Shown: one piece after another, positions 3,640-64,000 of the stretch | How the letters are laid out: every line of letters starts with the position of its first letter | How positions within the stretch are numbered: position 1 is the stretch's first letter | NCBI GenBank assembly: GCA_946699065.1 | Contig: CAMPDV010001244.1 | Location: forward strand, 62,001 to 126,000 | Direction of reading: 5' to 3' | Length of the DNA: 64,000 nt | DNA from: Loxodes magnus | Taxonomy: Eukaryota; Ciliophora; Karyorelictea; Loxodida; Loxodidae | Notes under the pieces: model-generated | What the model was told of the DNA's origin: nothing | Seen by the model: only the letters and a program-made list of their open reading frames with translations | Database searches by the model: none | Program-made: the position numbers and the translations under genes

Positions 3640-4359
3640 ATGATAGCTTAGAGATTAAATTAATATGGTCAACCTATAGGGGAAGACGTACCAGGATGGA
3701 CTCCACGGTAGTGGCCACCACGAAGTGCTCTAACAGGTCGTTATTGCAGGATTGAACCTCTATCGGTGGATCATGCATCAGATCTTTATGATGCAATACA
3801 TCAATCTCCCGACGATAAAAACTTCACTTATCTTTTTTCTGGACCTTTTCATGATAAATAAGAATATATTTCTTTCGTTTAATAGTGCTCTTAAAGTAAT
3901 GACCCACTTTACCATGCAGTAATCGATTTGAAAAGTGGACGTGCTGTTGGTGTAATGTCCTATCTACGAATAGATGTAAATTTTGGCGTGATTGAAGTTG
4001 GTCATATTCTTTTCACTAAACTATTGCAGTAGACAAGAGCTGCAACAGAATCTCAATATTTACTTATGTAAAGAGCTTTCGATGAACTTGGATATAGACG
4101 GTACGAATGAAAATGTGATAGTCTTAATGAACCTTCAAAAGCAGCAGCAATTAGACTTGGCTTCAAATTCGAAGGCATTTTCAGATAAGCTGTGGTTTAC
4201 AAGGAAAGATCACGAGATACTGCCTGGTTTTCTATTATTGATAAAGAATGGCCAAGGGTTAAAAAATCCTTTGAGGTTTGGCTTGATGAAGGAAATTTTG
4301 ATGAGAATGGAAACCAAAAGAAATCGCTTAAAGAAATTCGTGAGAGTTTTCAGGAGTAA
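3640..4359 (+). CDS. GNAT-family N-acetyltransferase, left-arm copy
   Basis: It probably transfers an acetyl group from acetyl-CoA to an amine; the substrate is unknown. Reading TAA/TAG as Gln gives 239 residues without a frameshift. The N-terminus holds [20 protein letters not shown], the middle [10 protein letters not shown] and [12 protein letters not shown], then IEVGHILF, a [11 protein letters not shown] segment, [27 protein letters not shown] and [14 protein letters not shown]. These are hallmarks of the RimL-like GNAT group. Codon 157 is TGA, exactly where relatives have Trp (RRYE-W-KCD). Five other Trp are TGG. The start is ATG at 3640. TAA at 4357 matches the usual end of the family; if TAA is only Gln the frame stays open to TGA at 4651. 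GC is much higher than the surroundings. The twin is at 40768-41487. Confidence 0.85.
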
Positions 4360-25840: not shown

Positions 25841-25846
25841 TATTTT

Positions 25847-40767: not shown

Positions 40768-41487
40768 TTACTCCTGAAAACTCTCACGAATTTCTTTAAG
40801 CGATTTCTTTTGGTTTCCATTCTCATCAAAATTTCCTTCATCAAGCCAAACCTCAAAGGATTTTTTAACCCTTGGCCATTCTTTATCAATAATAGAAAAC
40901 CAGGCAGTATCTCGTGATCTTTCCTTGTAAACCACAGCTTATCTGAAAATGCCTTCGAATTTGAAGCCAAGTCTAATTGCTGCTGCTTTTGAAGGTTTAT
41001 TAAGACTATCACATTTTCATTCGTACCGTCTATATCCAAGTTCATCGAAAGCTCTTTACATAAGTAAATATTGAGATTCTGTTGCAGCTCTTGTCTACTG
41101 CAATATTTTAGTGAAAAGAATATGACCAACTTCAATCACGCCAAAATTTACATCTATTCGTAGATAGGACATTACACCAACAGCACGTCCACTTTTCAAA
41201 TCGATTACTGCATGGTAAAGTGGGTCATTACTTTAAGAGCACTATTAAACGAAAGAAATATATTCTTATTTATCATGAAAAGGTCCAGAAAAAAGATAAG
41301 TGAAGTTTTTATCGTCGGGAGATTGATGTATTGCATCATAAAGATCTGATGCATGATCCACCGATAGAGGTTCAATCCTGCAATAACGACCTGTTAGAGC
41401 ACTTCGTGGTGGCCACTACCGTGGAGTCCATCCTGGTACGTCTTCCCCTATAGGTTGACCATATTAATTTAATCTCTAAGCTATCAT
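40768..41487 (-). CDS. GNAT-family N-acetyltransferase, right-arm copy
   Basis: This inverted twin of 3640-4359 has the same length (240 codons with TAA) and the same TGA at the conserved Trp. Two amino-acid differences were seen: Leu to Ile in the LLQQTR segment and Glu to Lys in NEPSKAAA (here NKPSK). The acetyl-CoA-binding region and the [14 protein letters not shown] end are unchanged. Intact frames in both arms suggest recent duplication, gene conversion or selection. ATG is at 41487 and TAA at 40768. Confidence 0.85.
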
Positions 41488-42407: not shown

Positions 42408-42599
42408 TTTTTTAGATAATATAATAATTATAGAATAAATCTCTAGTAAAAGTACACATTAAAAGAATAAAAAATCTTCTTGCTATATTTTAAAATTTTT
42501 AAACTGGAGAAATAGATTAAAAATAGTAATTTGAAAAAATTTATCTATTAAAATTTTATTTAACGGATAAAATAAAAGGAAATCGTAATATGAAAAATA

Positions 42600-43330
42600 C
42601 ATTTAGATGTAAGTTTAGGAATAAGTTTATCAAATGCACATAAGTTCAATCTAAAAGAAAATTCAAAAAATCTTTTTAATACAAATCTTATAAAAAACCT
42701 CTAGCATTTAAAAATTACTTAGCAAAACTAATATTATTTAAAGACAAGCAGTTTGATAAAAAATAACCATTACAGCTGTATTTAATTGATTAAGTTTCAA
42801 ACTCCTTTCTTATACTTTCATACGAAAAAATAAATTCAATTCCGACTAAAAATATAAGATAGAACATAACTGAGTCAAAAACCAAAATGAATTAATAAAG
42901 ATTTCGTCATAAGACTAATTATGTCAAAAGATTAATTTTCTTTAATTTAAAAATAAAATTATTCTAACACTCTTAAAGATGTTTTAAAATGCAAAGAATT
43001 GTCTTATTTCTCGAAGATTTAGTGAAATAAAAATTAAATTTTCTTTAAATCGCTTTGGATGTGATTAATGTGGTTAACAGATTTAATTATTAAGAGGATA
43101 TAAAATAAGAAAAAGAATCTCGTCAGATCAAATCTTAATTTTTATGACTGAAACAATGAATGAGTCAATTATAATAAAAATTAAAATATTAATTTATAAT
43201 TTCAGGACTTTTATAAGCAAAATAAAGCATTTTCTTATTAAACAAATATATTATATATTAAACTAGTAAAAATATAAGGAGTAAACTACTCACAGTCTCA
43301 AATAAGTTTCATTAAGCTTGGTTCAAATAT
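42600..43330 (+). other. Weakly coding-like stretch, right-arm copy
   Basis: Read with Gln at TAA/TAG this gives segments such as LAKLILFKDKQFDKKQPLQL and LNFLQIALDVINVVNRFN with few TGA. No domain is recognised. The counterpart is at 1990-2540. Confidence 0.2.
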
Positions 43331-43890
43331 AATATTATAAATTAATTAGATATCATTTTTATTAAATTAATTAATTAATATTTAATGATAAAATTAAAAC
43401 TTTAAAAAATATAAAATAAATAAATAAATCTCCTTTCATATTAAAATTTATATATAATTAAAATTAACGAAATAATTTACAATTCCTAAATCTTATCATT
43501 TTTCCATTTTTTATTTTTAAAAAGCTTATACAAGTTTAATTAAAATGATTTTTAAATTCTGGTTGTTATCATTAATACCATATAATATGATTTTTTTAAT
43601 ATAACTTGCTGTATATCATCTTATTATATTTTTTGCTATATTTTAAGTTTAAAACTTTTTGATTAATATTTGAATATTATTTTATTATAATTTACTTCGC
43701 ACTAATTAAAATTATTTAAATAATATAAATATATTAAATTTACTATAAACAAATTTAAGTAAAAATAGTATTATAACTTAAAGCTATATTTAAAAAATGT
43801 TGTTCTTAATTTTATCTGAAATCCTCTATTTTCAACACAACAATATATTGACTAGAATAATAAACTTAATTTAGTTCTTTTATAATTATT

Positions 43891-44235
43891 ATTTCAAAAT
43901 TATCATTTTTTTTATTTCAACTAAAAAAGTTTTTGGACCGGAAACTCCTTTCCGATTGCACAACCCGACACTCTCTTTTTATGGAATAACGAAGATATCC
44001 TGTTGTGCTCCAGGCACAACTGCTAGGGAGCTCAATCGCTATGAGCAGCCAGGCTTCAAGCCCCTACCAAGAGCGGATAATCTCAAAGACAGTGTTCACT
44101 TCAGAAAATGACTCTGACCAGGGACTTTCTTAGCGACAGGAAAGGAACTTGTTCCTAGCCATAAAACCAGAAAGTGTTGTCACGAAGGTCATTCTCAGCT
44201 CCCACCATCTTTTCAATTATTTCAAAATTATCATT
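43891..44235 (-). mobile_element. SINE-like family D, copy 3, with target-site duplication
   Basis: The element at 43908-44218 is bracketed by the perfect 17-bp repeat ATTTCAAAATTATCATT (43891-43907 and 44219-44235). The hairpin CGGAAA/TTTCCG and the A-rich 3' end (T-rich on this strand) are intact. It forms the inner edge of the segment missing from the left arm. Confidence 0.9.
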
Positions 44236-44989
44236 AAGAAATATTAATTATTAATGCTAATTATCATTAAAATAAACTGTTATGCTCATTTATTTTTTAA
44301 TTTTTGCATATATTAAAATTAATTATTAGTAAATAAATTTTAGAAATTTTAAATTGTATAAATAATTAATAAAATTTAATTAAAATTACTTATATAACTT
44401 TTTTGCTTATTTAAGCAAATATTATAAATAAGATTTTAAGTAAACTTCGCTAATACTTAAATTTAAAAAATGATTAAGGCAAATAAAAATTAAAAAATCT
44501 TTGAAAATAAAATTAAAGAATTGAAAATAAATTTTTAGTTAAAGATGAATATAATTTTTTAAATTAAGATAAATTAATTTCTTATATTTCTGTCTTGTTA
44601 AATTATATTAGAGATGTTACTATATAAATTAAAACAAATAAATTTTGCTTTCCACAGGTTAGATATGTAAAAAAAATTTGGAAATTAATCTTTTTTTAAC
44701 TTTTGTTTTTTTAATTAAATTTGTTTATTTAGAACTTATATACCTTACAAAAATTTTAAATCATTCATATAAAAAATTGAGTAATAAAAATTTGCTTTGT
44801 GAGTATAATAAATATATCTATATCATTTTTTCCATTATAAAAATAATTCCTAATTAAAGTGAAATTTATTAACTATCTAATTTAAATTATTTTTGATGGC
44901 ATTAGTAAATTAAACTCCTGCTTTGTTTATATACTTTTAATAAGTTGATATAAGGTAGAATAAAATTAATAATATGCTTAAATTTTATT

Positions 44990-45950
44990 TTTTAAATATC
45001 GTATAAATTTATCATGTCAATTATTAATAATCGATCTATTCCCACTTTCCATTATTCAAATCGTAGTTGAATAATTCACTGCATTCGTCGTACTAGAATA
45101 TAATATTTTTGCTGAAAACGGGCTGAGTTAAGCAATAGTTACTTTAAGGAATTTTTTCCCCGAACTTTTTGATTGTTTTAAAGTCAAATATAAGTGTAAG
45201 AATTAATTTATATTTATTTCCGTATACAATAAAAGATTTTAACTAATCAATAAAAATTGCTGATGCTTTAGTCTTATCATCCAGTTTTTTTTATTTTCAT
45301 ATCTTTAATTTTGAATGGAGTCATAAAATTAAATTATGTCCTACTTAGCTCTTTATTGAAAATTATATCCTCCAAACACTTAAACTTTTTAATCGCTCAA
45401 ATCACATCTGAAGATACTTATAGCTTTGAAAATTGATTTTATTTCAATCAAATTTTTTATTTTAAATGATATATCTCACATTAAGTAGCATCTTTGTTAC
45501 TTTCAGCTTAACCAGAATCAATATAAATTAAAGTTTTTTGATCGTAGCAAGTTCGATACCAATTTCTTTTATATAACATTTAGTACTCTTTTATTTATTA
45601 ATTTTGGCCATAAAACGTGAATCTTCTTTGGTTTAAAATTTTTCCGCCACTAAAGAGCAGAATTTCATTTGAGATCTATTCGACACTCACAAAGTCATTC
45701 ATATCGGATATAATTTCTTAATAATCTCATTCATTTTTTACTATATTATAGGTTATTTTTTAGTTAGAATATATCACAAGTGTTTAAATATTTCTGAAAT
45801 ATGGAAAAACTTTCAGAATTGAACAAAATCGTATTTAACAACTCCAATTCCAAATTTTCCAAACAATCTTTAGTAATTTTAGTTATTCGACTGTCTAAAA
45901 AGTTTTCTAACTAACAAAAGCTTTATAAGCAGCTTCTTATAAATATCCAT
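44990..45950 (-). pseudogene. Kelch-repeat-like protein, frameshifted
   Basis: From ATG 45950 the minus strand starts MDIYKKLLIKLLLVRKLF. A different frame from about 45670 contains a Kelch-type series: EILLFSGGK, then RNWYRTCYD, LIYIDSGQAES, CEIYHLKQKI-W-LKQNQFSKL. The end returns to the first frame with LFNYDLNNGKWEQI. The Y-I-x-S-G and W-containing blade strands fit Kelch repeats, which form beta-propeller binding domains. The blade Trp in HLKQKI-W is TGA. Frame changes mean introns or decay. The gene lies wholly inside the segment lost from the left arm. No BTB domain was recognised. Confidence 0.5.
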
Positions 45951-46813
45951 TTTTTCTATTATATGAAAAATTTACAATAAAATTGATATATTTAAATGAT
46001 TAGCAACTTACTAAGAAATAAATTAAAAAAAGGAAAGTTATTTCAAATCAAATTACTTTAGAAATTGAATATAAAAAAAGAGGAACTTTAAAAAATCAAC
46101 TTAATTAAAAAGAATTTTTATCTTTAAAATTATAAACTCTTATAAATTAAAAAAAACATTAGTAAAAATTTAATTTTAATCCTTTAGTTTCCATTCTATT
46201 TCTTAATATTCTCTTTTTAATAAATTCATATTTCTTCATATTGAGAATTTTAGCTCTTCTATCTTAAAATAAAGGCCTGCAAAATAAACAAAAAAATTAT
46301 CTTTCATAATGTTCATCAAATTTTTATTTTTTTAATATATCTCGAAACTATTTTTAAAACTTTTTGAAGTCACAAGCAGATTAAACTAAATATGCAGCTA
46401 ATTAATTAAAAATAATTAATGATTAAATTAAGTTTTAAACAAAAGTATATAAAATAAGAAAGTAAAAATGCAGAAATCTGCTATTTTTATAGCTTTATTA
46501 ATTTTGTTTATAGTTTCATTAAAATAAAAATATTAAAATAAAAAAAAGAAAAAAGTAAGTTTAAAAATAATTTAAAATATAGAAAGATAATTTAAGTAGA
46601 TAGACATTTTAGATGCTTTTATTTTATTCTAATTCCTTTATATTTATAAAATTAAAATTGTATTTAAAGTTAAATTAAACAATATGCTATTAATTATAAG
46701 ATTGAAGCTGATAAAAAACTCAAAGTCATGTGATTAAATGAAAAAATGTATGCAAAAGTATGAAGAAACGATTAAAAATTAAGGGGAAAAATCAGAAAAT
46801 TAATGAATAGCAT

Positions 46814-47153
46814 AGAAGATTAAAATTATTTAGTTTCAACTAAAAGAGTTTTAGGACTGGAAACTCCTTTCCGATTGCACGACCCGACACTCTCTTTTTA
46901 TGGAATAACGAAGATATCCTGTTGTGCTCCAGGCACAACTGCTAGGGAGCTCAATCGCTATGAGCAGCCAGGCTTCAAGCCCCTACCAAGAGCGGATAAT
47001 CTCAAAGACAGTGTTCACTTCAGAAAATGACTCTGATCAGGGACTTTCTCAGCGACAGAAAAAGAAATTATTCCTAGCCATAAAACCAAAAAATGTGGTC
47101 ACGAAGGTCATTCTCAGCTACAACCATCTTTTCAATTATTAGAAGATTAAAAT
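46814..47153 (-). mobile_element. SINE-like family D, copy 4, with target-site duplication
   Basis: The element at 46827-47140 is bracketed by the 13-bp repeat AGAAGATTAAAAT (46814-46826 and 47141-47153). It is in the same orientation as copy 3, 2.9 kb away, which allows deletion of the intervening DNA by recombination. Confidence 0.9.
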
Positions 47154-47363
47154 AATGAATTATTACTATTTCGTTGTTAGCTAATCTAAAATAACATAGT
47201 AATAGAATAGTAATTATTTTAATAGACACTATCAATTTTTAATCAAGAACATAAAATGGCTATAGAAAATGAATAAGTTAAATTAATTTATCAAAAATAA
47301 AACAAATGTAAATACTAATTTAAGATTTTTAAAAAAGAATACATTTTCTAGAACAAAAATATA

Positions 47364-48150
47364 ATGGAAAATATAAAGAAAAATTAAATCTTAAGCTGCT
47401 ATTATTGCAAGTAAGTGAATCATATATTACGAAAAATGCCGAACCTGAAAAAAACTAATTTAAAGAGAACAGCAAAGAAAGTGAAGGACATTAATTATCT
47501 ATAAATAACTGAGCAAGGAGTCTATAAATAGAAATATCTATCAAGAACTGAAGATATTTATTGTGGTAAACTACTACATTCGTGTAAAAAAATGGAAAAA
47601 AATACTTAGTCGAAAACCCATGTGAAGATAAATCATTAACATGTAAATATATTATTATTATTATTATATATAAAAGATAGCATCAAAGAAATAACAGACC
47701 TCTACAACAAATCTAATAACTATTAGCAGAATGCGGTTAACGATCTCTACCTTCTTTGGATGAAGACTCAAAATCTAACAAAGACTATTAGTGATTTTAT
47801 CTACGAACTTAAAACCTGATTAGCACTATTGAGTTGTTAAAACCTGAAAATTTAATTTTAAAATGGAAGTTAGCTTTTTATAAGGTTTGTAGCAAATTTT
47901 AAGGAAGAATTGCATAGACGGAATCGATTATATAAGAAATTTAAAATTCCAGAAAGACTAAGCTAGAGCAGCTCTAATAGCTCAGCAACCCAATGAAGAT
48001 ACAACAATAACTACCAATATAAGAGATTCCTATCAAAAAATAATATTGTAATATTGCAAGTAAAAGGCCAAATATACCGATTTATTACTTATTTAAATAA
48101 AAATAAAAGAGAATAATAGGAAAATAAGGGTAATATATATTTAGAATATA
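47364..48150 (+). pseudogene. Zinc-knuckle/coiled-coil gene fragment, right-arm copy
   Basis: ATG 47364 gives MENIKKNQILSCYYCKQVNH, a C-x2-C-x4-H knuckle whose last Cys is Met. A second Cys/His cluster follows (IYCGKLLHSCKKM), then a coil (AVNDLYLLWMKTQNLTKTIS). After about 47850 another frame reads FQKDQARAALIAQQPNEDTT. It resembles the other knuckle proteins, but here the knuckle precedes the coil. The homologues are at 1-684 (inverted) and 15285-15680. Confidence 0.45.
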
Positions 48151-48164
48151 TTGTACAGTGAAAG

Positions 48165-48420
48165 CTAATTCTATAGGAAAAAATACTCCAATAAACGAAA
48201 AAACTCTCAATTTCTAATGATCAGTGAATAAATTCAACAAAAATGATTGGGATTTAATCTATCGAAAAAATAAAGAAAAATAATCTTAAAATCATCAAGA
48301 CTCTTTATATTGAAGATCTAAACAAATTTGAGATGAACACTTATTTCAAAACAATAAACATATATGTGGTAAACCAAATAAAGGTGACACCACAATAATA
48401 AATTATGTTTTTTTATTATT
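48165..48420. repeat. Diverged relative of the 2.2-kb tandem unit
   Basis: Blocks such as TATAGGAAAAAATACT, TTGGGATTT and AATCTTAAAAT-x-GTCAAGA recur in order with 26685-26925 and 28908-29140. One plus-strand reading gives HQDSLYWRSKQIWDEHLF and HICGKPNKGDTT, so the shared block may be an old exon. Confidence 0.5.
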
Positions 48421-49581
48421 TATTTAGATAAACTTTATAGGGCATATTTAAAATTGTATGAAATAAAGGAAAATATTCTTCAAGTTATACTACTTTATTA
48501 AATAACTTTTTTATATGTTAATAAACTAATTAGAAATCCTAATAATTCTAGTTAGCCCAATTATATTACATTTTTATTATATTTTAACATAAAAAACCAT
48601 AAAATCCAATTTTATTTATATCTAACTTTTCAAAATTATTTTTATCTTAATAAACAAGAAATTTACGAGTGCTTTTTCTTTTTTTTTAGTTTTAAAATTA
48701 AATTAATTCAGATTATACCCTATTTTGATCTTAAATTCTAAAATAGCAAAATAAACTTTAATGTCTTTATTGGATTTGAAATAATAAAAGCATTAAATTA
48801 TAATAAAATTATCTAATTCTCAAAATTTTGAATTCTTAAGAAAATGGTTTGAAAACACTTAAATATTTAATTTTTATTTCCTCAATGATCAATAAAAATA
48901 AATTGAAATCAAAGAAAACTATATTAATATCAAATAAATATACCAATCAATTTTATATGATTGTTTAATTATACAGTTTAGTAAATTAAAGAACATAATA
49001 AGCTTATAATCTATCATATTACATGAATGTTCAGAAATAATAACTCAAAAAATTTATAAAAAAATGCAAAATAATTTTCAGTAGATTTCTTATCATTTTA
49101 AGTTAATAATATATTAATTTTTTTAAACAAATTTTCTATAATTTAAGAACATAAAATTTTCAATTACTATTTAAGTTTTTTAATAACAGTGAAAAATGTA
49201 CTTATTTACTAAATTTCCTTAGATGAAAGATATTTAATGATCATAATAGATATAAAATGTTTATAAGTTATTTTTTATAAAAAAATGATTAAATTATTAT
49301 GAAATCTAAACTGATATTAATATATCAAATAACTAAAAAATATTATGATTGAGTTGATTATAATTTTACCTTCTTTTATAGATTGTAAAAAATCTATTTT
49401 TAATAATTTATATGAATTTTAGCTTTTCAAATTATATTTGAATAAGAGTTAAAATATTTTTTTTATTAGATAAATTTACTAAAATTTTTAAATATTATAT
49501 TATATAATATAAAATGGTGTCTGAGACACAATAAACATCTATTACGAATATCTTAAAAAATAAGTGTAAATAATCAAGATT
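48421..49581. other. AT-rich spacer
   Basis: No gene or repeat was recognised. Confidence 0.4.
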
Positions 49582-49889
49582 AGAGTGCGTAGCCCTTCAA
49601 TGCCACACAGCTCTTTAATAAAGATTTTTAAAGTTAAAAAAATCTGAAGTTTTCCACAGTGCTAGCATCCTTTGTGAATTTCGTCTTCTATAGGGCGTGA
49701 TTGAACGCTTCAAAAGAGATCTTAGTATCCGGCATCTTTCATCTATAACGTTACTTGATGCCTCTTTAATCTTTGTCTTCTCTCTTGGCTTCATCCAAGA
49801 TTCTTGTTCGATTCTTCGCCCTTGGGTACTTCCTGGTACCATATCTTAAGTTGATGTCATATTGAGGGTTGCTTCTCCCTATTTATTTA
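49582..49889 (-). mobile_element. SINE-like family C, copy 4
   Basis: The reverse strand shows AAATAGGGAGAAGCAACCC at the 5' end and the body blocks GAAAGATGCCGGATACT and AAAGGATGCTAGCACTG. The 3' hairpin is at 49582-49614, but the TTTA tail is very short. The 75-codon standard ORF inside is not conserved in frame in the other C copies. Confidence 0.8.
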
Positions 49890-50049
49890 TATTATAAAAC
49901 ATTCAGGCCAAATAAGAATCAGATTAATAATAATAAAACTAATTTAAGAGTTTTTTAGATCTGTACATGAAGAATATCAAATCTATAATAATAATTAAGG
50001 AAACAAAGATTAAAAATTGAAAAATACAATACTATATAAATAGACGAAG

Positions 50050-50640
50050 AGGAAAAAATTAAATTTACTTATATAGAGTAGGCTATCAGCAAGATCTAAT
50101 TTCAAATGCGACAAAATTAGAAGAAATCAACAAATGTTTTAACTTTTTTTGATATTCTAATATTAAAATTAAATGAATTCTAGGAAAACAGAGATTATAA
50201 TAGGAAGCTATTTAAAAGACCTAAGAATGATAATAATGATGTGTACTATTAACATAGAACAAAAATTTTTAATAAGACATAAAAAAGAATAAATTATTAT
50301 ATATTAAAAATTAACACTTTTACAACAGATACTGATGAAGAAACTATATTTGAAAAATTCATAAAAAAGGCATATCAAGAATTCTATTTTTAATATGACC
50401 AACTTAATCAGACTTAATATACAGGATAAAAAAGCTATAATAGTAAATTTAGCAATTTTTGTAAATAATTTTTAGAGGAATAGACTCAGCTGTAAAATCC
50501 AATTTATAAATAAGGATGGTAGATTAAAGAAATTCTAAACTATCTTTTGTACAAGAGAAGAAATTTTCAAGATTACATTATTTAAAAGCTAACTTTTGAA
50601 CTATTAACTCCTTTTAACTTTTTATAATTTAAAAAATATA
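50050..50640 (+). CDS. Hypothetical gene, two frames
   Basis: One frame (50090-50250) reads QDLISNATKLEEINKCFNFF. A second (about 50310-50625) reads TTDTDEETIFEKFIKKAYQE, then QKSYNSKFSNFCKQFLEEQ and QIKEILNYLLYKRRNFQDYI before turning into AT-rich sequence. The second block is convincing protein with no TGA. No family was recognised. A frameshift or intron near 50300 would join them. Confidence 0.45.
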
Positions 50641-50649
50641 TTTAAAAGA

Positions 50650-51447
50650 TTTTTTATTAAAATAAAAATAATAAATAAAAAGGATAGTTTTAAGTAAAAT
50701 TTAAAATGAAAAATAATAAGAATATAAATATAAAATCATAAGAAAAAATTATTCTTTTCCCATTTTAATTTTTTAAATACATATCTTTAATGCTAAATAT
50801 ATTATTTAGATAAGGAACTAATTATCATAGAAAAAGTTTCATTAATAATTTTTAATTATTTAAAGTCAAATAAAAATAAATTTTTCTTTTTAAGTTTACT
50901 TAAGTTTAAAAAATATTTTATCTTGGGTGTAAAGGTTATATTAAACTTTATTAGTAAGAAATTATAATATTGACATTTTAATTTTAAAAAATTAAATATA
51001 TTAAAGTTTTACTTTATTTAGATAGTAAATTTTTAATTAAATTAAGAAAAAATTTATATTTTTACAATGAATGATTCAAATTATAATGAATGACTATTTA
51101 GAATAATTTTTAATTACTCTTAGTTTTAAAATTAAAAATTTATATTTCTATTAATTCCGAAAAAACTGTAAATTTTTATCTTATAGTTACTTAAATATAA
51201 ATTGAAAGATGATTTTTATTTAAAATTACTGTAGATATATTTTTTCATTCATAATAAATTTAAACTAATTTTAATTGAAATATGACAACTCTGCTTTATT
51301 AAAGTTTAAAAATAATTTTTGAAGTAAAAAATAATTTAAAAGATAATTATCAATTCTTTAAACTTTATTTAAATAGAATAATTACAATAATTAACAATAT
51401 TACTATTAAATCAAATTTTTATATTAGAATGTTTATAAAATATTTTA
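50650..51447. other. AT-rich spacer
   Basis: Nothing recognisable was seen. Confidence 0.4.
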
Positions 51448-53590
51448 TCACAAGTAATTAATAATTTTATTTTTATTAAGTACTTATAAGTTAAAAAAAC
51501 ATTAATTTAATTATTCATTTTAAATTTAATTCTAAGTAAAATTATTAAAATATTTCGCACACTTTATTAGAGCTTTTAAAGCATCTTCGATACCATTTTA
51601 TCTTTTTATGATTCCATTATTCTAATTTTTCTCAAGATCTTCCTTTTAAATATAATCTTGATCTTCATAGATGTTATTTTTTTCTTGAATAAGTAAATTT
51701 ATTTATTTTATATCAGTTTCTTCTGAAATTTGATATTAATTTTAAGTTGAAACTTTTTAAACTTATTTTATATAAGTTCCACTTTCAATAGATTCTTCGG
51801 ATTCCATTATAGAACTTAAAGCCTAATAAGAGTAGCAAAAATATCCCCAAATTATATTTATCACGCACTGAGTTTTCATTCATGTGTATATTTTGATAGG
51901 GCGTTTTCTATAGTAATTTAGCATAGATTATCTTATTTTCTTAGGATAATACTTCTCCAACTTACACATTTTTAGAAAAATTATCTAAGCTTTAAAATAT
52001 AGTATTTTAAGGTCATTTTTCTTCTCCAGTATTTGTTACTTCTCATTTTATAAAAACTTTTTCATTTGTAGAATGTTTTTATACTTCCCTTATTTGCTTA
52101 ATAGAAGCTTAAAGGAAAGGTTTTATATGCAAAGTCATAACACATTCTTACGATATATCTATTTCTACATTCTTTCTAAGTATAAAAGTTTAAACCAATT
52201 TTAACTCAATAATCTTAGAAATCGAAAGGTATTTTTCAATATGGCATCTTCATTTCGTTCTAATATCTAACTAATAACAAAGTCTTTACTTGGTTCTTTT
52301 CAAAATAAGCTAACACGTTCTTTCCATGAAGTCTCGCCAATATTATAAATTTTACTATATAATAAAATTACAACTCTATATCTACTTTTTATCCTTTCCA
52401 AAACTAATTATTATCTTAAAGGCATTCAACTTTTCCCTGTATAATTAACTTACTTTATATTTTTCACTTCTTTCTTTTTATTCCAATAATTATTGGTATT
52501 GTTAAGTAAGTTTATAGTTTTCTTTTTCTTAGCTTTATATATTATCTTTTAATTAAGCGATATAATTTTCATACTCTATTTTTTTAATTTCCCATTCTTA
52601 ACTTTTTAACTACTCTTTAGTGTCATCTTATTTATTATTTTATTCTTATTTGTTTTATTGAATTAGTGGCTGAAATTATTGTATTGAATATTAGTTAAAT
52701 ATACTTGTATTTGGTTCTTAAGTTTTATTCTAATTGTAATTATTTAAAGGATTTTCTAATTGATCTCAATAATGTTTTAGAACTATTGATTACCATATAT
52801 AAGATTATCCTGAGACTATATAAGGGGCTACTTATTAATTTGAAACTGCTATTGCTACAGTTATTAATCTTATTAACTACCCTAATGAGGCTGGAATATC
52901 ATCTAGAAGTTATAATTTTGTAATTAGGTATTTTATATTTCTTCTTTATACTCCTCTTTTAGAACATAAATTATTCCTGGCTTTCTAGAAGAATATTGTC
53001 CTTTCACTTCTTCAAATTTATGGCTATAAATAGTTGCAAGCTTTTATAGAACCATCTATTCATTTTCAGAAACCTCAAAATATTTTGCTAATTTAACTAG
53101 ATCTTTATTAAAATATGGTAGGAGCTAAAGTAACGAAGATTGAAAATTATCCAATTACTAAATTGTCTAGCATTACTCATTCATTACTTCTAGGCTTTGC
53201 TTATAATCTTATTCCATAGAAGTAATTTTTAAATTCCTGTCTAATATATCTAAGTCTCACTAAGCTTATTTAACTAAGTAGTAATCTGATCTAGGCTCTA
53301 ATATTTTAGCTACTAGTTCTCTTTCCTTAATTTATTAAATAATGCTTAAAATTCTAATCGTTTTTTCATTTAAATCCTCTATATCAGACCTAGACGTTTT
53401 ATCAAATTAAGCTAAGTTTAATGTGACTTATATGTAAATATTATAACAGCGATTACAAATAACCCTGTAAATTTCATAGCTTATATGAAAAATTTTAGCA
53501 CTCTTGTATTATTTTTTCAAGTTGCTTCTTTCCTTTTCCAAATTTATCAACTTATTCTTCTCCTTTCAGGTTAGTGGAATTAGCTAACAT
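51448..53590 (-). CDS. FW-domain (NBR1-like) protein with coiled coil
   Basis: A probable start at ATG 53590 gives MLANSTNLKGEEQVDKFGKG. The long middle (DIEDLNEKTIRILSIIQQIK; later LPYFNKDLVKLAKYFEVSEN) is coil-rich and ends in a Gln tract. Then comes KVFIK-W-EVTNTGEEK-W-P, matching the start of the four-tryptophan FW domain of NBR1-type proteins (W-x-h-x-N-T-G-x3-W-P). Both Trp are TGA (52043-52045 and 52013-52015). The C-terminal part (SGTYIKQVQKVSTQNQYQ; GIEDALKALIKCAKYF) is in another frame and could be a UBA-like end. A CxxC pair (ICNRCY) lies near the N-terminus. NBR1-like proteins are autophagy receptors; that function is inferred. Two frame changes imply introns or decay. Confidence 0.5.
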
Positions 53591-53599
53591 AATTGATAA

Positions 53600-54344
53600 T
53601 TATTTATTTATAAGATAAAATAAAAAAGGCTTAACCTAAAAATGGCTAAAAATAACATAAGGAAGCCTAATAAATCTAAATAATTAGGTATAATCTTATA
53701 GCATTATGCTTTTATACTGAAATTACATTAGAAAGGTAATTTTTTGAGCTAACTATAAATCTCTTATATCGCTTTTTTTAGAAAAGCTTTAACCTTTGAT
53801 ATAATAATTTCAGTCTAACTATTTTAGAGAAAGTTACTGATATTTTTTAATCTGATAAGTTAAATTTTATCTTATTAGAAATATATTATATACTTATAAA
53901 GATTAAGCTAATATGTAGCTACTTTATGAATGATATTTATAAGATAAATAATATAAAATTGCTTATCTCAGTCTAAATAAACTATAAACATTTTTAATTT
54001 CTTATTCATGCTTAGTATAATCAGTTTTGATAAAATAAGAGAAACTGAATTATATTTTTGAGAATTTATTCTAGTAACTAAAATGAAAAATTATTTTATA
54101 GATAAACAAGTAAGGAACTGAAAAATTGACTATGTTAGGTAAACAAAAAAGTAATAAAATGCTAGTATAATTAAAATTATTTAAATTTGTTATAATGAAA
54201 GTTGCTTTTTAATATTAGTGCTTTAATTTTTTAAAGTTAAGATACTATTTTAGGGTTGTTATAATGAAACTGTAAAAAGAAAACTGTTTCGTAAATATTT
54301 AATTGATTTATTTTAAAGAAATTATAATTAAATTATAATATAAA
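53600..54344. other. AT-rich spacer upstream of the FW-domain gene
   Basis: No repeat or gene was recognised. The promoter of the minus-strand gene would lie here. Confidence 0.35.
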
Positions 54345-54687
54345 ATAATTTAATTAATTAATAAATAAGATTATAGAGCGCGTAGTATCTCAATGGCGCG
54401 TAGCTCTGTAATAAAGATTTTAAAAGTTTAAAAAATTTTTTGAAGCTTTCCACAGTGCTAGCATCTTTTGCGAGTTTCGTCTTCTAGAGGGTGTGATCGG
54501 AATGTTAGTAAGAGATCTTAGTTCTGGCATCTTTCATCAATAATATTACATATTACCTGATGCTTTTTTAATCCTTGTCTTCTCTCTTGGCTCCTACAAG
54601 ATTCTTGTTCGGTTCTTCGCCCATGGATACTTCCTGACACCAGATCTTAAGTCACTGTCAATTGGAGGATTTTCCTCCCTATTTGTT
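54345..54687 (-). mobile_element. SINE-like family C, copy 5
   Basis: In reverse, a 5' hairpin GGAGG-AAAAT-CCTCC is followed by C body blocks (GAAAGATGCCAGAACTAAG, AGATGCTAGCACTGTGGAA) and the terminal hairpin at 54375-54407, then a CTTATTTATTAATT tail. This is one of the best-preserved C copies. Confidence 0.85.
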
Positions 54688-54923
54688 TATATATAATAAG
54701 ACTAAACTCCTCTATTTAAAATAAAATATAACTTGATTAATTTTAAAGATTTAAATCATTTTTTATAGTTTTTACAATAAACATAATAAAAATTAAAAAG
54801 CATTAATATTTGAAATAGAAAAATTAAAACATTTAAAGTTTAAATTGTTTCTAGAATTATTAATCATTTATAATTAGAGTAATTATATATAATAAAATAT
54901 TACACTGAGGGAGAATGATAAAA

Positions 54924-54996
54924 GGAGCCAAACTCCTAGTTGTTATTTTGGCAAATTGCGCCCTTCGGATTATTTCGCGAAGTGATGCGCTTTTTT
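54924..54996 (+). ncRNA. Candidate structured RNA ending in a T run
   Basis: AGGAG-CCAA-ACTCCT forms a small hairpin. It is followed by a two-step stem at 54958-54990 in which GCGC pairs with GCGC and CTTCG with CGAAG. Six T follow at 54991-54996, as expected for an RNA polymerase III end. GC is far above the flanks. No known RNA family was recognised. It could instead be the 3' end of an unlisted SINE; the GC-raised sequence continues to about 55260. Confidence 0.4.
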
Positions 54997-54999
54997 AAT

Positions 55000-55555
55000 T
55001 ATTCTGGTAGATGAGGATTTGATTAAGGATGATTGGAGTTTAATCTTTAGTAGTATCTACATTGGATTACAGAATCGATGGTGGCTTGGCATTACTTAAA
55101 AATTAGTCGGAAAAGATCTATCCTCAAACATATTTTGTGAGGATATTGTGGTCTGTACTTACTGACTTCAAAAGAGAAGAATGCTATCAACAATTTCAAA
55201 AGCAATAAGGAAGATTTCATAAATGGCAATAAATTTAGACTTAAATAAAATGTTAATGATTCCATTAAAGGAGGAATCAGGCTAATCTATTATCATTATT
55301 TCTCAAAGCTACGGCATTAAGCAAAAATTTCCTTATTTTTCTTATGCAACTTAATTTTTTTAATTTGCATAATTATCTAAAATAATATTAACTTAATATC
55401 TGCGTAATTATTTCAAGAATTTTATTAATTAATACAAATAATTAAAAATTAAATAAAAATTGTATTATGTAAGTTTATTTATAAGTATAAGAAAATTAAA
55501 CTTTAAGAGTTTTTAACATTGTCATTACTCTTGAATTTATGAAGTTATGAAAATA
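55000..55555. other. Moderate-GC then AT-rich spacer
   Basis: 55000-55260 is somewhat GC-raised and may belong to the same unit as the hairpin before it. The rest shows nothing. Confidence 0.3.
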
Positions 55556-55559
55556 TTAA

Positions 55560-56190
55560 ATAAGATAAAAGCTTAAAATTTTGGACTTCCAACTCTGATC
55601 CCTTCTTATTCTTTTAGTACTAATTATCTTTTAATTCTTTTTATATTTTCTTCGATACTACGATATTTGTTTCTGCTTTGCTTCATTTAATTTCTTTCCT
55701 TTATGTACTTTTCTTCTATAAATTTACTCTTTTCAATCATCATATTTTTCTCATTTTCTAGAAAATTTGTTCCCTCTTTTTTTACTTTTTATTTAACTAT
55801 CAACAATTTATTTTCAGAATTTTTTCTTCTTTTCAAATCGAAATCTTAATATATTTCTCTGGTTACAGATGCAAGAAAGCTTTTAATCTTTCTCAATATC
55901 CATAGGGTCTATATTGATTTAATATTATTTTACTATTGATTATATATATAAGGTAAATGATTAAATCTCTATTTTATTTATTTAACTTGCCTATTTACCA
56001 CTTACATTTCATTTTTCAGCTAATTTCTTTTTTAAATAGTTATTATCTCGTTTAATCTTCATCAATGCTTAGCACAAGGTTCTAATATTCCTTCAAATTA
56101 ATAACTTAAGCTTTTCGTGTCTGATTTCTGAAAGCTACTATATCTGCTTTTAATAGTTTATGTTTAAGATAGTTTAGTTTCTTTTATTAT
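55560..56190 (-). pseudogene. Remnant of a zinc-knuckle/coiled-coil gene
   Basis: The minus strand carries the family motif DPMDIEKD, followed by a sequence whose bases resemble the knuckle region at 60521-60543 but with shifted frame and lost Cys spacing. The flanks read as Lys/Glu-rich coil (EGILEPCAKHW upstream; KSKFIEEKYIKERN downstream). It is a decayed copy of the family at 12934-13671 and 38510-39358. Confidence 0.35.
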
Positions 56191-56199
56191 AATAAGCAT

Positions 56200-58660
56200 C
56201 AATATTATTTATGCACTATGAATTTTTAAATTATTATTTCTCTCAAATTTAAACAACCTAATAGCTATTATTTCTATATAAATTATCCAAAATTTTTTAA
56301 AAATTTATAAATCCCAAATATGTTAACAAAACATATATTAATTAATTAAAATAACCTCTTAGCGGAAATTTTTAAGCAAATAGGAAACTACTAAAAATAA
56401 AAAAAATAAAATAAGCTAAGTGCAAAAATTAATTAACTTAAAGACTAGCAAATAATAAAATAATAATGAAAAATAAATTATAAAAAATAAATAGCAAAAT
56501 CATTTTTTAACTAGCTAATTATTAGCGTAACTTAAAATTTCAATTTTACTTAATTTACAAAATAACTTTAAAAAAAGTCTTTATAATAATTAAAAAAATA
56601 TGACTATATTATTAAGTTCGAATAATTAACTCTGTAAATTATAAATTTGCAAATAAATAGAATAAAAATTATAAGTAAGATAAAGAAAGTTCATATAATA
56701 GATGATAAATAAGTTTATTTAAATGCAATAAATTATTTTAAAATAACTAAAAAAGGAATAAATTTTATAATTAAAATTTTAAATATATAATAGAAGTATA
56801 AAAAATAATATTAATATTTTTCTAATTAATATAATTCGATTCTTCAAATAAGATTTTAAAAATTACTGAATGTTAAAGTTAATTTAAGTTAATTAATAAT
56901 AAACCATACAGAATAAAAAAGTTTAATAGAAGCAGTAAATCAACCTTTTAATATAATTAAAGAAATTTATTAATTTACTAATAAAATTATAATTAAACAT
57001 TATAATTAAGAAAATATAGAAATTATTTATAAGTTATTAATAATTTTGAAACTAAAATCTATTTAAATTAAAAAATAAAAAAAATAAATTTGTCAATATA
57101 CTAATTATGTATAGTTAAAAAAAACTATTTTTATACTAAGAATATTTTTAATAAGAAATAAATTTAGATAGAATTTTAAAAAAAATATTTCAATATAGCA
57201 AAATTTTATATTTTAATAAGATATTATAAAGGAATAATAATAATAAAAATGAAATATCTCGTTAAAAATATTAAATAAATTTTAATGATAAAATACTTAT
57301 TTTAAAAAAGTTAAAAATTTGATGGCGTGGTTAAACTTTAATATTAAATTAGAATTAAAAGATAAGAATATTAATTTTAAATTTAAGAAAAATTATTAAT
57401 TACAAAAATTTAAATAGAATTATATTACGTAAATTAAATTATTATAATTTTTCACTATTTAAATATTTAACAAATTTATATTATATATTAAATACAATTA
57501 CTTTTCTTAAATAGTTTGCATTAAGGAGAATAATTTTTTATTCTTAAAATTTTTAATCTCAAAAATAAACTATATTTTAAAATATATTTAAATATAAAGG
57601 CCAATTTCTAGTTTCTAATAGAGATAAACGAAAATAAAATTCGAAAAAATAAGATCAAATATTTTTTATAAAAATAAATTTTAGATGGATTTCAACTAAA
57701 CCTAAGTTGAATATATTAAACATTTAAATAATAAAATTAAAAAATAGCATAAATAATCAAAAAAATTTTTGCTTTAAATTTGATTTAAAAAATGAATCAA
57801 CATATTTTAATATTCATTATAGAATATATAATTCTAATAATTCTAAACAAAATGCGAAAAATTTAAATATAAAAAAACAAAAATAATTATAAATTTTTAT
57901 TTTTAAATTATTCTTAATATTATAAGTATTTTCTAATTATTTAAATAAATTAAAAATCCAGTTTCCTATTTTTCTCTTGATTTTATATGCTTATCTTTTT
58001 ATCTTGTTATTTTTAACCTTTTACTTTCTTAAAAAAATAATTTTAGTATTCAATCTAAACATTTTTTTAAATTTTATTTTAAAACTTGATTTATGAATTT
58101 CCAATAAATAGAAAAATCATAAAATTTTATTTATATAAAAGTTTTTAAAATAAAATTTGTTCTTTAGTTAGATACTATACATCCATTAATTTTTAAGCAT
58201 TTTATTAAAAATTTTGATATTTTGGATTTATTATCACTATCAATTCAAAACTAATTAAATATTAAATTTATTACATCACTTTAAACTTTATTGATATATC
58301 TATTTATGTTACTATAAAACTTATTGATCTAACATATAATTATTTTAAAATTTTAATATATAACTAAAATATTTGAATTTAATAAATAATAGAAAATTTT
58401 TAAATTAATTTTATTTATCTTTATTTAAATTTAGTACTTTAAATAAAAAATAAATTAATTATTATAAAGCTATATAATATTTTATTTTTAGCTTCAGATA
58501 GATTATTATCCTTCATTGATCTATCTAATACATTTAATAAATCAGATTTTTATATTACATACTAATAAATTCTTTAATTCTACTTAAAATTACTGATCTC
58601 ATAATTAAAAATTATGCTATTTTTCAGTCTTTTTTTTAATAATTTTAAGTAAAAAATACA
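56200..58660. other. AT desert
   Basis: This is the most AT-rich stretch of the window, nearly free of G and C over long runs. No gene, hairpin or shared repeat was recognised. Confidence 0.5.
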
Positions 58661-58662
58661 CA

Positions 58663-58962
58663 GATTATAGAGCTCCTAGCTCTTTTAATAATTTTTTTTT
58701 TATTTACAAAGATTCTTCATTGAAGTCTTCCTAGAGCTGCATTCCCTTTTTGAGTTTTTCTTCTATAGTGATGTAGGATGCAAGCATAGAGTCACCCTAA
58801 GAGATTCTAGTATGTAGCATCTTTCAACATTAATGCTATTCTATGCCTTCATTCTTATCCTTCTTGACTCCCGCTAATAGTCTCGCTCAGTTTTTCGCTT
58901 ATGGGATATTTCCTGGCTTTAAAGTTTTAGACAATTTAATTGTATAATTACTTTTCCCAATT
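58663..58962 (-). mobile_element. SINE-like family C, copy 6 (old)
   Basis: The C blocks are recognisable in order but strongly mutated (AGATGCTACATACTAGAATC, TCTCTTAGGGTGA). The terminal hairpin is reduced to AGAGCTCCTAGCTCT at 58669-58683. Confidence 0.7.
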
Positions 58963-59109
58963 TAATTTAGCTTTATAAATAAAAAACTATAATTAAATAT
59001 TAATTATCAAAAAAGTGAAGCCCAAGCTTTTTATTAAATAAATTAGATTGGTAAAAATAAAAAAGAATCAGAAAGGAACAAATAGAAATTAATAAAGCCA
59101 AGAAAAAGA

Positions 59110-59783
59110 ATGAGGTCTCCTTCAAAATAAGAAACTAAAATTTAATAAGATTTTTAAGAAACTATACAGCAAGAAGTATCAGAATTTAACATCTAACAAT
59201 AGATAAGCTATGAACAGCTTATAAAGGTGGTGCTTAACCTCCAAGAAGAGGTTTAAAAGCTTCGAAAGGAGAAAGCCAAGCTAAAGAATTAGTGACTGGA
59301 GGACTCTAAGATTCTACTGACCTAAGACTGAACAACCAGAAAAGAGAAATCAGCACACTCTGAAATTATCAACATGAACTACTGAACCAAACAAATTCTC
59401 AAGTCTAAAGGATATAGGACCAAAATTAACAGCTTGAAAACATTCTTCAAAGTTAAAACCTTAACTTCCAACTTAAAAGCATGGAAATAGAAAAAGAATA
59501 CAATGAATAATAATAGTGAAAAATGAAAATAAGGAAAAATAAACTTTTCTACTACTGTAGTAGATAATTACATTTATATAGAAATAGCTGAAAATTCTTA
59601 AAATTTAAAAACAGTATTGAATCTAGGAAAAAAGAAAAAGAGAACAACTTTATTGCAATCAAGAAAGATAAATCTATAGAAGAAAAGAAAATTAATAACT
59701 TCTGTGATCATATTAAATAGGACCTTAAAGAAGAAAACTTTTTGATATTCAAAAGCGACCTTCTCACAAATTTATAAACTTCT
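59110..59783 (+). pseudogene. Coiled-coil/zinc-knuckle protein, decayed
   Basis: From ATG 59110, MRSPSKQETKIQQ leads to EVSEFNIQQQISYEQLIKVV, clearly homologous to EASEFNPSGQMSKEQLIKVV at 16064. After a frame change near 59310 the coil continues (LNNQKREISTL-W-NYQHELL). Its Trp is TGA where the 16064 copy has TGG (ELSAFWNILQ). The knuckle survives as FYYCSRQLHLYRNS, with first and last Cys lost. The tail resembles the 16064 C-terminus. A pseudogene is likely. Confidence 0.6.
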
Positions 59784-60249
59784 TTGAACAGCGGTCATGA
59801 ACTACCGCGAAACTATTTTTATCTATTTAATTAAGAAAAAAATTATTTAAACAGTAAAATAAATACTTGTATAAATGTAAAATTTTATTTGATGAATTCC
59901 GTTTTTTAATTAAATTGATATTAAAAAAAATAAAAGTTTTAATTTATTTTAACTTTAGAATAATTTTAATTATCATACCTATATTAAATAAAATTTTAAT
60001 TATGATTATAATAAAGAAGATCTTTCTTATCAAAAATAAGATATTAAAGTGCTATTGAAATTGTTTAAATCAAATTAAAATTAAAAAAAGTAAAAATTTA
60101 TCAAAAAAACTACTAATTTTTAATTAATTTATATTACAATCAAAACATTATTTGAGTGAATAAAGTAAAAAATATTTATTTTTTATTTTACTTATTTATT
60201 TTAAATAATTTTTAATGATATTTATTAAAAATTTTTAAATCATTATTAA

Positions 60250-61614
60250 TTCATAAAATAACTGTTCGCCTTCCATCTTTATTGAAGTATTAAATGCATA
60301 ATATCTCCGTTCTTGCATTTTCTGTCCTTTCATTGCACTTTTTCCTTGACTTCTATCTTTTATATAATCTGAGTTGAGAATTTATTTTTTTCCAGATTTT
60401 CTCATTTCCCGATGAGGATAAATCCGTCGCTCGTTATTTCAGTTGGTATTAATTAACATTTCTTCAGATATTCATTCTTATTTATTTCAATTGGGGACAT
60501 TTCCTCCATAAATTTCAATTGCTGTTGCAAATAAAGCATCTTTTTCTTGTATTAGGAAATGTCCTTTCTTGTTTTTATATTTCCATTGGAGTTCCTTATG
60601 AAAGCTTCTACAGGTTTTCTGCAATTAATTGGAGTCTCAAATTTAATTTACTCAGTTTTTATCGTCTTGCTCTTGTATTATTCAAATATCATTCTCAAAC
60701 TTGCCATTAGCTCATAAACTCAAGCTTTAACTCTTCAGTCTACCGTATGGACTTCATCATTATCTTCATGATTATCAAATCCTGACTTATTATAAACATC
60801 TCTTCCTTCTGGGAGTTTAATTCTTCTTCGAGTTTATTTATGTTTTTACTAAGTTGATAAATCAGCTGCTTCATCCACTAAGAGTCCATTTGTTCTATTT
60901 CAATATTGTCTAAATCAAAGGCTATAGGATCTATATTGAATTATCATACTTACCTTCTTCGTTTTTTTTATTTCTTTGTTATTATTTTTAGCGATTCAGT
61001 TGAGTGGTCTCTTTTTTCAGTATTCAATGGAGGCGTTGAAAGCTGTGTTAACCTTTCTGTTCTGAATTTTTGTCTCAGTTCTTACTTGTCCTTTGATGGA
61101 ACAAATCTGCTTTATTTTAATTTGTAGGAATTAGCATTTTTATAAGTTCTTCTAATTTTTAGACAGTTCTGGTTATTTTTATTAAGAAGAGCGATAAGTT
61201 GAAGAAGACGTTGTGAGAATATGTGCTTCTGTCTTGATTTTGTTTAAGGTTCTTTTGAGACTATTAGTATAATTATTATTCCGTTACTAAATTATACTGG
61301 ATTAACTGACGTATAATTATTAACAAGCCATTATTTTGATCATCTATGAAGTTCATTAATTCTCTGATTTTTTCTCCTTGGTTGCAAATTATTTCTTGAT
61401 ACTCAGAAATTTTATTTTTCATTTAATCAAGCTATAAAAAAAGTTTGAATTCTCTCCAATCTTACCTGAATTCTTCTGAGCTGTTCCTATCATAATTTTA
61501 CCTTCTGATGAGGAGCTCGATTTCTCTTCTAGTTGTTGTTATTTAAATAATTGCTTCGCCATTTAACTTTGTGCGTTTCTAGTTAAGTCTTTGAAGGCGA
61601 AAAGATTGTTCCAT
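60250..61614 (-). pseudogene. Coiled-coil/zinc-knuckle protein(s), frameshifted
   Basis: The N-terminal part (ATG 61614 or 61562, e.g. MAKQLFKQQQLEEKSSSSEG) is coil-rich (MKNKISEYQEIICNQGEKIR). After a frame change near 60950 it continues QMDSQWMKQLIYQLSKNINK, a second coil, a PMEIQKQE motif, and the knuckle CFICNSNWNLWRKC at about 60500-60545. The His position is Asn. Here LWRKC uses TGG. The basic C-terminus fades near 60250. It may be two fused partial copies. Asn for His should weaken zinc binding. Confidence 0.55.
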
Positions 61615-61737
61615 TTTTTTTTAATAGATAAAAATTTATATTTAAATGAAAAATCATTAAAGAATAATTAAATATTATACACTAGTTGAATAAAAAAATA
61701 TACTATTAAATTATATATAATTTGATTATAAAAAGAT

Positions 61738-64000
61738 ATGAATACATGACGTAGACAGTAAATTAAAAGAATAGAAGATAGATAAAGTTTACAAGTCAAA
61801 GGAAATGGTGTTTATAAGTATCCAAATGGAGATAAATATGAAGGATGTTGAGAAAATGGAAAAAAATAAGGATATGGTAAACTTTACTATTCAAGTGGTG
61901 AAATATATGATGGACAATGATAAGATGATTTAAAATATGGTTTTGGAATATTTAATTATTTAAATGGAGATAAATATGAAGGATAATGAGAAAATGGAAA
62001 AAAATAAGGATAAGGTAAATTTATTTATTCAAGTGGTGAAATATATGATGGACTATGATAAGATGATTTAAAATACTGTTTTTGGAATATTTAATTATTT
62101 AAATGGAGATAAATATTAAGGATATTGAGAAAATGGAAAAAAATAAGGATATGGTAAACTTTATAATTCAAGTGGTGAAATATATGATGGACAATGATAA
62201 GATGATTTAAAATAGGGTTTTGGAATATTTAAGTATCCAAATGGAGATAAATATGAAGGATATTGAGAAAAAGGAAAAAAATAAGGATATGGTAAACTTT
62301 ACTATTCAAGTGGTGAAATATATGATGGACTATGATAAGATGATTTAAAATATGGTTTTGGAATATTTAATTATTCAAATGGAGATAAATATGAAGGATA
62401 ATGAGAAAATGGAAAAAAATAAGTATATGGTAAACTTTATTATTCAAGTGGTGAAATATATGATGGACTATGATAAGATGATTATAAATAGGGTTTTGGA
62501 ATATTTAATTATTTAAATGGAGATAAATATGAAGGATAATGAGAAAATGGAAAAAAATAAGGATAAGGTAAACTTTATTATTCAAGTGGTGAAATATATG
62601 ATGGACAATGATAAGATGATTTAAAATAGGGTTTTGGAATATTTAAGTATCCAAATGGAGATAAATATGAAGGATATGTTGAGAAAAAGGAAAAAAATAA
62701 GGATATGGTAAACTTTATTATTCAAGTGGTGAAATATATGATGGACAATGATAAGATGATTATAAATAGGGTTTTGGAATATTTAATTATTCAAATGGAG
62801 ATAAATATGATGGAATATGAGGCAACGATTTACCATTCACTGGATAAGGAGTTTTTAAGTATCCTAATGGAGATAAATATGAAGGATGTTGAGAAAATGG
62901 AAAAAAATAAGGATATGGTAAACTTTATTATTCAAATGGTGAAATATATGATGGACAATGATAAGATGATTTAAAATATGGTTTTGGAATATTTAATTAT
63001 TCAAATGGAGATAAATATTATGGAATATGAGGCAACGATTTACCATTCACTGGATACGTTGTTTTCAAGTATCCAAATGGAGATAATTATAAAGAATGTT
63101 GAGAAAATGGAAAAAAATAAGGATATGGTAAACTTTATTATTCAAGTGGTGAAATATATGATGGACTATGATAAGATGATTATAAATAGGGTTTTGGAAT
63201 ATTTAATTATTCAAATGGAGATAAATATGATGGATAATGAGAAAATTGTAAAAAATAAGGATAAGGTAAACTTTATTATTCAAGTGGTGAAATATACGAT
63301 TGACAATGATAAGATGATTATAAATAGGGTTTTGGAATATTTAATTATTTAAATGGAGATAAATATGAAGGATAATGAGTATCTGGTAAGAGATAAGGTA
63401 AAGGTATTTTATTTTCTTTTTATGGAGTTGTTTTTGATTGTTTTTGGTAGAATGATTTTATTTTTGACTTTGGATTTTCAAATATTCTAATTAAGTCTAG
63501 ATGATTTGTAATTTTGTTAGATTTTAGTTAAAGACGATTCAATAATATTTATTTTTGGATGATTTTTTGGGAAGTAAGAGTCTTTAAAGTTCTTTTAAAC
63601 CTTTTTCTTACCATCCTTTTACTAGTTTTGAAACTAGTAGTTTCGTTTTTTATTTTAGTAAAAAATAAATATCGTAAAATATTTCATTATTTTTCAATAT
63701 TGAGGATTTATGCTAGCTTTAGAAAGTTAACAAATTTTTTATGAATTTCTAATTCTTTATCTAAAAAATTGATTTTTAATTTAAACCGCATTAACTTTAA
63801 TCTTTTACAAACTATTGTAAGTGACAATTAAAGCAAATTGCATTTTCTGATGTCTATAAACTTATAATAAATTCTAAAAGATTATCTTAGAGCTTCCTTA
63901 ACTTTATTTAAATTTTATTAGGTTTTAGCATTTAAACAGATAAAGTTTGTTATAGAAAGATTGAAGGAGCAAGATATTTAAAGAGCTTTATTTGTACACA
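61738..64000 (+). CDS. MORN-repeat protein, open to window end
   Basis: From about 61800 to 63400 there are some 22 MORN repeats of 23 residues in alternating types: NGDKYEGQ-W-ENGKKQGYG and SGEIYDGQ-W-QDDLKYGFG, with a third type YDGI-W-GNDLPFTG. The Trp of nearly every repeat is TGA; one degenerate repeat at the end (VFDCFW) has TGG. TAA serves as Gln in GKKQG. Two frame disturbances, one extra base near 62075 and two near 62670, together restore the original frame. The putative start is ATG 61738. After the repeats, hydrophobic helices appear (VLLNLFLTILLLVLKLVVSF), and with TGA 63742 read through the frame stays open. MORN proteins scaffold membranes or cytoskeleton; the role here is inferred. 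The gene runs past the window. Confidence 0.75.

Follow-up and report, generated by a model that had tools for sequence, protein, structure and literature searches.

Does TGA encode tryptophan in this genome? The question is raised by a MORN-repeat array near the end of the window, by which we mean the whole 64,000-nucleotide stretch of Loxodes magnus DNA analysed here (contig CAMPDV010001244.1, positions 62,001 to 126,000). An initial annotation, made from the letters alone, had placed TGA on the signature Trp of about 22 repeats and on conserved Trp residues of several other domains, had read TAA and TAG as Gln, and had named two ciliate groups as possible sources, karyorelicts being one of them. 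The organism is indeed a karyorelict, Loxodes, and under table 11 the window contains zero open reading frames of at least 150 codons. Feature coordinates are collected in Table 1.

Table 1 Features of the window and of other contigs (positions refer to the window unless a contig is given)
Feature	Position	Strand	Remarks
Bacterial-type GNAT acetyltransferase gene	3640..4356	+	From homologue alignment; 3' end is a guess
In-frame TGA of the GNAT gene, codon 157, invariant Trp	4108-4110	+	From homologue alignment
Inverted second GNAT copy	40771..41487	-	TGA kept at codon 157
Weak FW (NBR1-type, N_BRCA1_IG) domain, two TGA at the Trp pair	51746..52195	-	Below Pfam cut-off
MORN-repeat gene or gene remnant	61738..63504	+	ATG at 61738; ends inferred from frame
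23 TGA codons on the signature Trp of MORN repeats	61849..63378	+	First at 61849, last at 63376
Frame break 1 in MORN array (+1 relative to repeat unit)	62079..62083	+	70-base unit (regular length 69)
Frame break 2 in MORN array (+2, back to first frame)	62676..62680	+	Unit of 71 bases
Candidate TGA stop of MORN-repeat gene or remnant	63502-63504	+	Inferred from frame
eRF1 genes L010 and L011	Contig C196, about 35 kb apart		436 codons; aligned end to end with solved eRF1
66 tRNA-Trp(CCA) genes	C148:155301-175300		U.C at top anticodon-stem pair; 65 in one run, one adjoining on the opposite strand
48 tRNA-Trp(CCA) genes	C67:481501-491500		A.C at top anticodon-stem pair; sequences read

TGA in the MORN-repeat array

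The array is made up of three successive in-frame stretches (61738-62079, 62081-62677 and 62680-63408), which scored 68.5, 136.9 and 111.9 bits, respectively, against the Pfam MORN profile (PF02493, cut-off 22.5). Its closest solved structures are MORN1 proteins, with radial spoke head 1 among others. As in MORN repeat proteins of the Pfam family and of known structure, the repeat has 23 residues and a YxGxW signature; unlike them, the array is frame-broken and highly homogenised, and its Trp comes from TGA only. Indeed, the 556 codons of the three stretches include 25 TGA, 33 TAA and 6 TAG, and TGG is absent. All 23 signature Trp sites carry TGA and none carries TGG; 22 of them were found by motif, in agreement with the annotated number, and the 23rd, at 62680, is split from the motif by a frame break. 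The three repeat types with differing neighbouring codons that had been described are present, and seven combinations of neighbouring codons occur around the 22 motif sites.

In three alignments with solved structures, judged by eye, the cells opposite the TGA Trp sites contained Trp in 22 of 24 cases and Phe in the other 2. The two remaining TGAs of the array lie at 61747 (codon 4) and at 63301, a Gly position that also faces Gly in the solved-structure alignments (by eye). A profile-score comparison was made on the last third of the array, with TAA and TAG as Gln and ten residues tried at TGA. Trp gave the best Pfam MORN score (111.9 bits), followed by Phe (106.4), Tyr (85.9), Leu (84.8), Ser (69.1), Lys (68.7), Cys (52.0), Arg (49.0), Gln (48.9) and Gly (33.8). 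TGA encodes Cys in Euplotes, and a different amino acid (Cys, Phe or Arg) might be considered here as well. On this profile Phe nearly equals Trp, which counts against the Trp assignment, whereas Cys and Arg fall far below it. For TAA and TAG, the score was 136.9 bits when read as Gln versus 142.0 as Glu, and the array is unable to separate the two.

The MORN units are nearly identical to one another. We counted unit-to-unit substitutions in 18 units, leaving out 4 of the 22 complete ones (lengths 70, 71, 72 and 72). Pairwise comparison of single-difference codons yielded 106 nonsynonymous versus 23 synonymous changes in type A units (n = 10), and 55 versus 0 in type B units (n = 8); no purifying selection between units is shown. 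Additionally, the array changes frame at about 62080 (+1) and 62678 (+2), which the initial annotation had overlooked, and 199 codons are thereby shifted relative to the remainder.

Probably this array is a copy that is decaying or under weak constraint. We lean slightly towards the view that it is a pseudogene in which one or a few TGG-to-TGA changes were spread by homogenisation and which is therefore silent on the code; TGA at 23 of 23 sites, the two frame breaks and the mostly nonsynonymous differences all support this. TGA would then already have been in the ancestral unit or units and have spread by copying, and the pattern may represent one to three old events multiplied in this way. 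Since homogenisation could mean that one to three events lie behind all 23 sites, the caveat that accompanied the initial annotation stands, and the array alone is poor evidence on the code. Such decay may well explain the array, yet it fails as an argument against TGA as Trp, since conserved Trp residues are TGA in unrelated genes too.

TGA in a bacterial-type acetyltransferase gene and in protein kinases

One of these genes encodes a bacterial-type GNAT acetyltransferase and is present in two copies, with 2 differences in the 810 bases that were aligned (40678-41487). Its product scored 229 bits against the solved GNAT 3tcv. Of the homologues listed (120 of 7999), 119 are 56-62% identical to it and one is 47% identical; those named among the 120 are bacteria, mostly Achromobacter, Bordetella, Pandoraea and similar. 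Judged from these comparisons, the gene was likely acquired horizontally from bacteria. The two copies sit in a large inverted duplication, with arms at 1-5760 and 39369-48133 whose pieces are 91-99% complementary and have 34-48 kb between them.

The homologue search read TGA as Trp, and in the alignment each TAA, TAG and TGA was entered as X. The sole TGA in the conserved part of the gene, codon 157, lies opposite Trp in 120 of the 120 listed homologues, which bears out the annotated GNAT Trp. Similarly, four of the five TGG codons face Trp in all 120, the fifth (codon 25) falling in a non-Trp column. The gene thus provides a neat single-gene case, in which a bacterial-type sequence has TGA where every listed relative carries Trp. 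Ten TAA or TAG codons are also found in the conserved part. TAA at codon 183 is opposite Gln in 106 of the 120 listed homologues. In the columns of the other nine, Gln makes up a minority of 3 to 17 of the 120; codon 131, for example, falls in a column with 106 Arg. With these nine codons and one TGG in columns mostly of other residues, the gene has evidently drifted, and a single column speaks for TAA/TAG as Gln in it.

Immediately past the conserved end of the GNAT gene is a TAA (4357), and the next in-frame TGA is at 4651, 98 codons on. This end alone hints at a table 28-like use of TAA, TAG and TGA as either sense or stop. A candidate 17-base GT-AG intron at 4340-4356 was discarded, as by eye it brings no nearby TGA into frame.

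The other annotated domains fared less well. The motif with TGA at the FW-domain Trp pair is present on the minus strand near 52045, and the domain is too weak to pass Pfam: N_BRCA1_IG matched with 18.2 bits (E 0.0038) against a cut-off of 28 when TGA was read as Trp, and gave no match up to E 1 when it was read as Arg. The F-box and Kelch Trp residues said to be TGA were not recovered. Loose motifs in six frames returned 6 strings resembling an F-box and 4 resembling Kelch, but on inspection by eye none was persuasive; Pfam found neither domain in ten selected segments, and nothing in six frames of 48001-61740. The Pfam searches of the window covered these two sets and short queries. The long six-frame queries missed the FW domain that a short query found, and their negatives are therefore weak.

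Genome-wide searches used an assembly of 705,730,643 bp in 7843 contigs. The best 30 of 136 scored protein-kinase matches comprise 7631 codons, with 21 TGA, 61 TGG, 117 TAA and 68 TAG. In these 30, the Trp column of the DxWSxG motif is TGG in 22, TGA in 7 and Tyr in 1. Consistently, 17 of the 21 TGAs share a column with TGG, the other four being in columns without it. Fourteen of the 30 carry one or two TGA codons in frame, and yet their match extends over almost the entire profile. The four kinase TGAs outside TGG columns count against TGA as Trp, as does a locus that is pelota-like by eye (L009): it has a single in-frame TGA, at a site that presumably is not Trp in relatives.

The invariant GNAT column argues against Cys, Phe or Arg, as does the kinase motif, where 29 of the best 30 matches have TGG or TGA, and despite the close Phe score of the MORN array we give almost no credence to any of them. 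Equally negligible, in our judgement, is the reading of TGA as an ordinary stop, by which the usual ciliate code (table 6) would apply and these genes would be pseudogenes or contaminants. The two eRF1 genes described below would suit it, both seemingly ending in TGA and having none internally. Opposing it are the 14 kinase matches with in-frame TGA and nearly full profiles, the concentration of kinase TGAs on Trp columns, which is not expected from random decay, and the published code of the genus, in which UGA is Trp or stop (excerpt of PMC11441545). TGA as Trp is thus upheld by genes outside the MORN array.

eRF1, tRNA-Trp and the genetic code

Each of the two eRF1 genes has four Trp codons, all TGG, and no internal TGA. 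The two genes have 20 and 21 TAA or TAG codons, and one of these, a TAA, is the Gln of GGQ; with these genes aligned end to end, TAA/TAG as Gln is also supported outside the MORN array. L010 is 95% identical to Loxodes striatus eRF1 over 100% of its length, compared with 44-59% for the other 119 listed relatives. The initial annotation had suggested looking for eRF1 changes in the assembly: the stop-recognition motif is GRAQNIKS in both genes, as in L. striatus, versus GTASNIKS in the solved relative. Both genes end ...DEDFL-TGA, followed by a second TGA three codons on, and the L. striatus entry likewise has this Leu as its last residue. Because TGA stands where eRF1 is expected to end, it appears to be a stop as well, and is likely the stop codon of both genes.

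Taken together, the Loxodes nuclear genome almost certainly follows NCBI table 27, the karyorelict code, which reads TAA and TAG as Gln and gives TGA two meanings, Trp in the body of a gene and stop close to the end of the mRNA. This code, with Loxodes, was reportedly described by Seah et al. in 2022. TGA as Trp inside genes was observed in the MORN array, the GNAT gene and the kinases, and TAA/TAG as Gln in the eRF1 genes and at GNAT codon 183. Use of TGA as a stop at gene ends is indicated by the two eRF1 genes only. In these three respects the genome is like table 27, and we found no difference in any of them. As TGA is also a stop, the code is ambiguous rather than simply reassigned. The reading is true and is no new discovery, the code having been published for the genus: an excerpt of PMC11441545 gives table 27 for Loxodes, with UGA as the sole stop and also as Trp at a sufficient distance from the poly-A tail. 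With organism and code fixed, the window is to be translated with table 27. What remains is the single-gene GNAT case, caution on the decayed MORN array and, as described below, large arrays of tRNA-Trp genes with a 4-bp anticodon stem.

Related codes share parts of this pattern. That of Condylostoma magnum (table 28; excerpt of PMC4967479) is alike in TGA as Trp and TAA/TAG as Gln; there TAA and TAG were inferred as stops too, whereas here their sense use only was observed. Blastocrithidia has UGA as Trp in common with Loxodes, and differs in that UAA and UAG are Glu and UAA is also a stop (PMC12153298, in excerpt). Reassignment of all three stops had been annotated as confined to a few ciliates, which does not agree with passages of PMC12153298 and PMC12005148 that report it for Blastocrithidia and the dinoflagellate Amoebophrya.

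A pattern search of the assembly for tRNA-Trp(CCA) gave 129 matches, versus 15 for a reversed control. Our counts cover 117 of the 129, namely 100 listed matches and 17 more on C148; one shortened copy on C67 was not counted as a tRNA. ARAGORN assigned a 4-bp anticodon stem to both the U.C and the A.C form. The stem is 5 bp long in two genes on C110, which also show some mismatches in the T stem. The 4-bp stem was therefore found in 114 of the 116 genes whose stem was read, and among the matches listed nearly all of the 114 copies lie within two tandem arrays. Another pattern match, L043, was rejected, being no tRNA according to ARAGORN.

Such genes are reported for Loxodes, citing Swart et al., in excerpts of PMC13092985 and PMC12005148; the same excerpts state that opening the top anticodon-stem pair raises UGA readthrough, for tRNAs of Blastocrithidia and Condylostoma. 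The 4-bp-stem tRNA-Trp(CCA) is common to Loxodes and both of these organisms (PMC13092985, in part). Amoebophrya sp. ex Karlodinium veneficum likewise combines reassignment of all three stops with this tRNA, whose open pair consists of U and C like that of the C148 genes; by contrast, the 4-bp stem is found in 1 of its 7 tRNA-Trp(CCA) genes, against 114 of the 116 read here (excerpt of PMC12005148).

As proposed in the literature, the 4-bp-stem tRNA-Trp(CCA) would read UGA as a near-cognate codon, and eRF1 would win over it only close to the poly-A tail. A dedicated tRNA-Trp(UCA) need not exist as UGA decoder, given that the genome has the 4-bp-stem tRNA-Trp(CCA). That such a tRNA decodes TGA, as expected in the initial annotation, with the 4-bp-stem genes being incidental, seems to us highly improbable: 114 genes carry a device that raises UGA readthrough elsewhere, and tRNA-Trp(UCA) is reported as not found in Condylostoma, Blastocrithidia and Amoebophrya (both points from excerpts of PMC13092985). 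Our own searches for it bear little weight. A DNA query gave zero matches, and the pattern TGACTYCARATCA... gave one, too short for a tRNA; both missed the CCA genes as well and are thus powerless.

Gene dosage might contribute, an idea that we hold tentatively and consider rather unlikely: 114 copies with the 4-bp stem versus two with the 5-bp stem among the matches covered could let a weak near-cognate tRNA outcompete eRF1 internally, to the extent that tRNA copy numbers in the assembly, which may be off, can be taken at face value. Against it, other tRNA genes also lie in regularly spaced runs (eight that were read are tRNA-Lys), and the amplification may therefore be general. If not yet described, the tRNA-Trp arrays would bear on how UGA is kept readable in an ambiguous code.

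Other features of the window

Rfam at gathering scores and ARAGORN found nothing in the window. A self-trained coding model favoured short stretches rich in GC, among them many repeats, and the TGA share that it returned (2.3%) was discarded. Pfam matches in the ten selected segments were GNAT and, below their cut-offs, HALZ and DUF3157 in 12787-13962. On the minus strand, a reading frame at 12787-13962, perhaps derived from a retroelement, includes CFVCKQTGHKYRQC, which by eye resembles a CCHC zinc knuckle. A dispersed 65-base family has six copies, at 8911, 12571, 32232, 33920, 41986 and 54352, which are 60-100% identical to the reference and share a common core around TTATAGAGCG that is GC-rich on an AT-rich background; it is possibly a short mobile element. 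Finally, 25839-30299 contains a direct tandem duplication of about 2.2 kb with pieces that are 97-100% identical.
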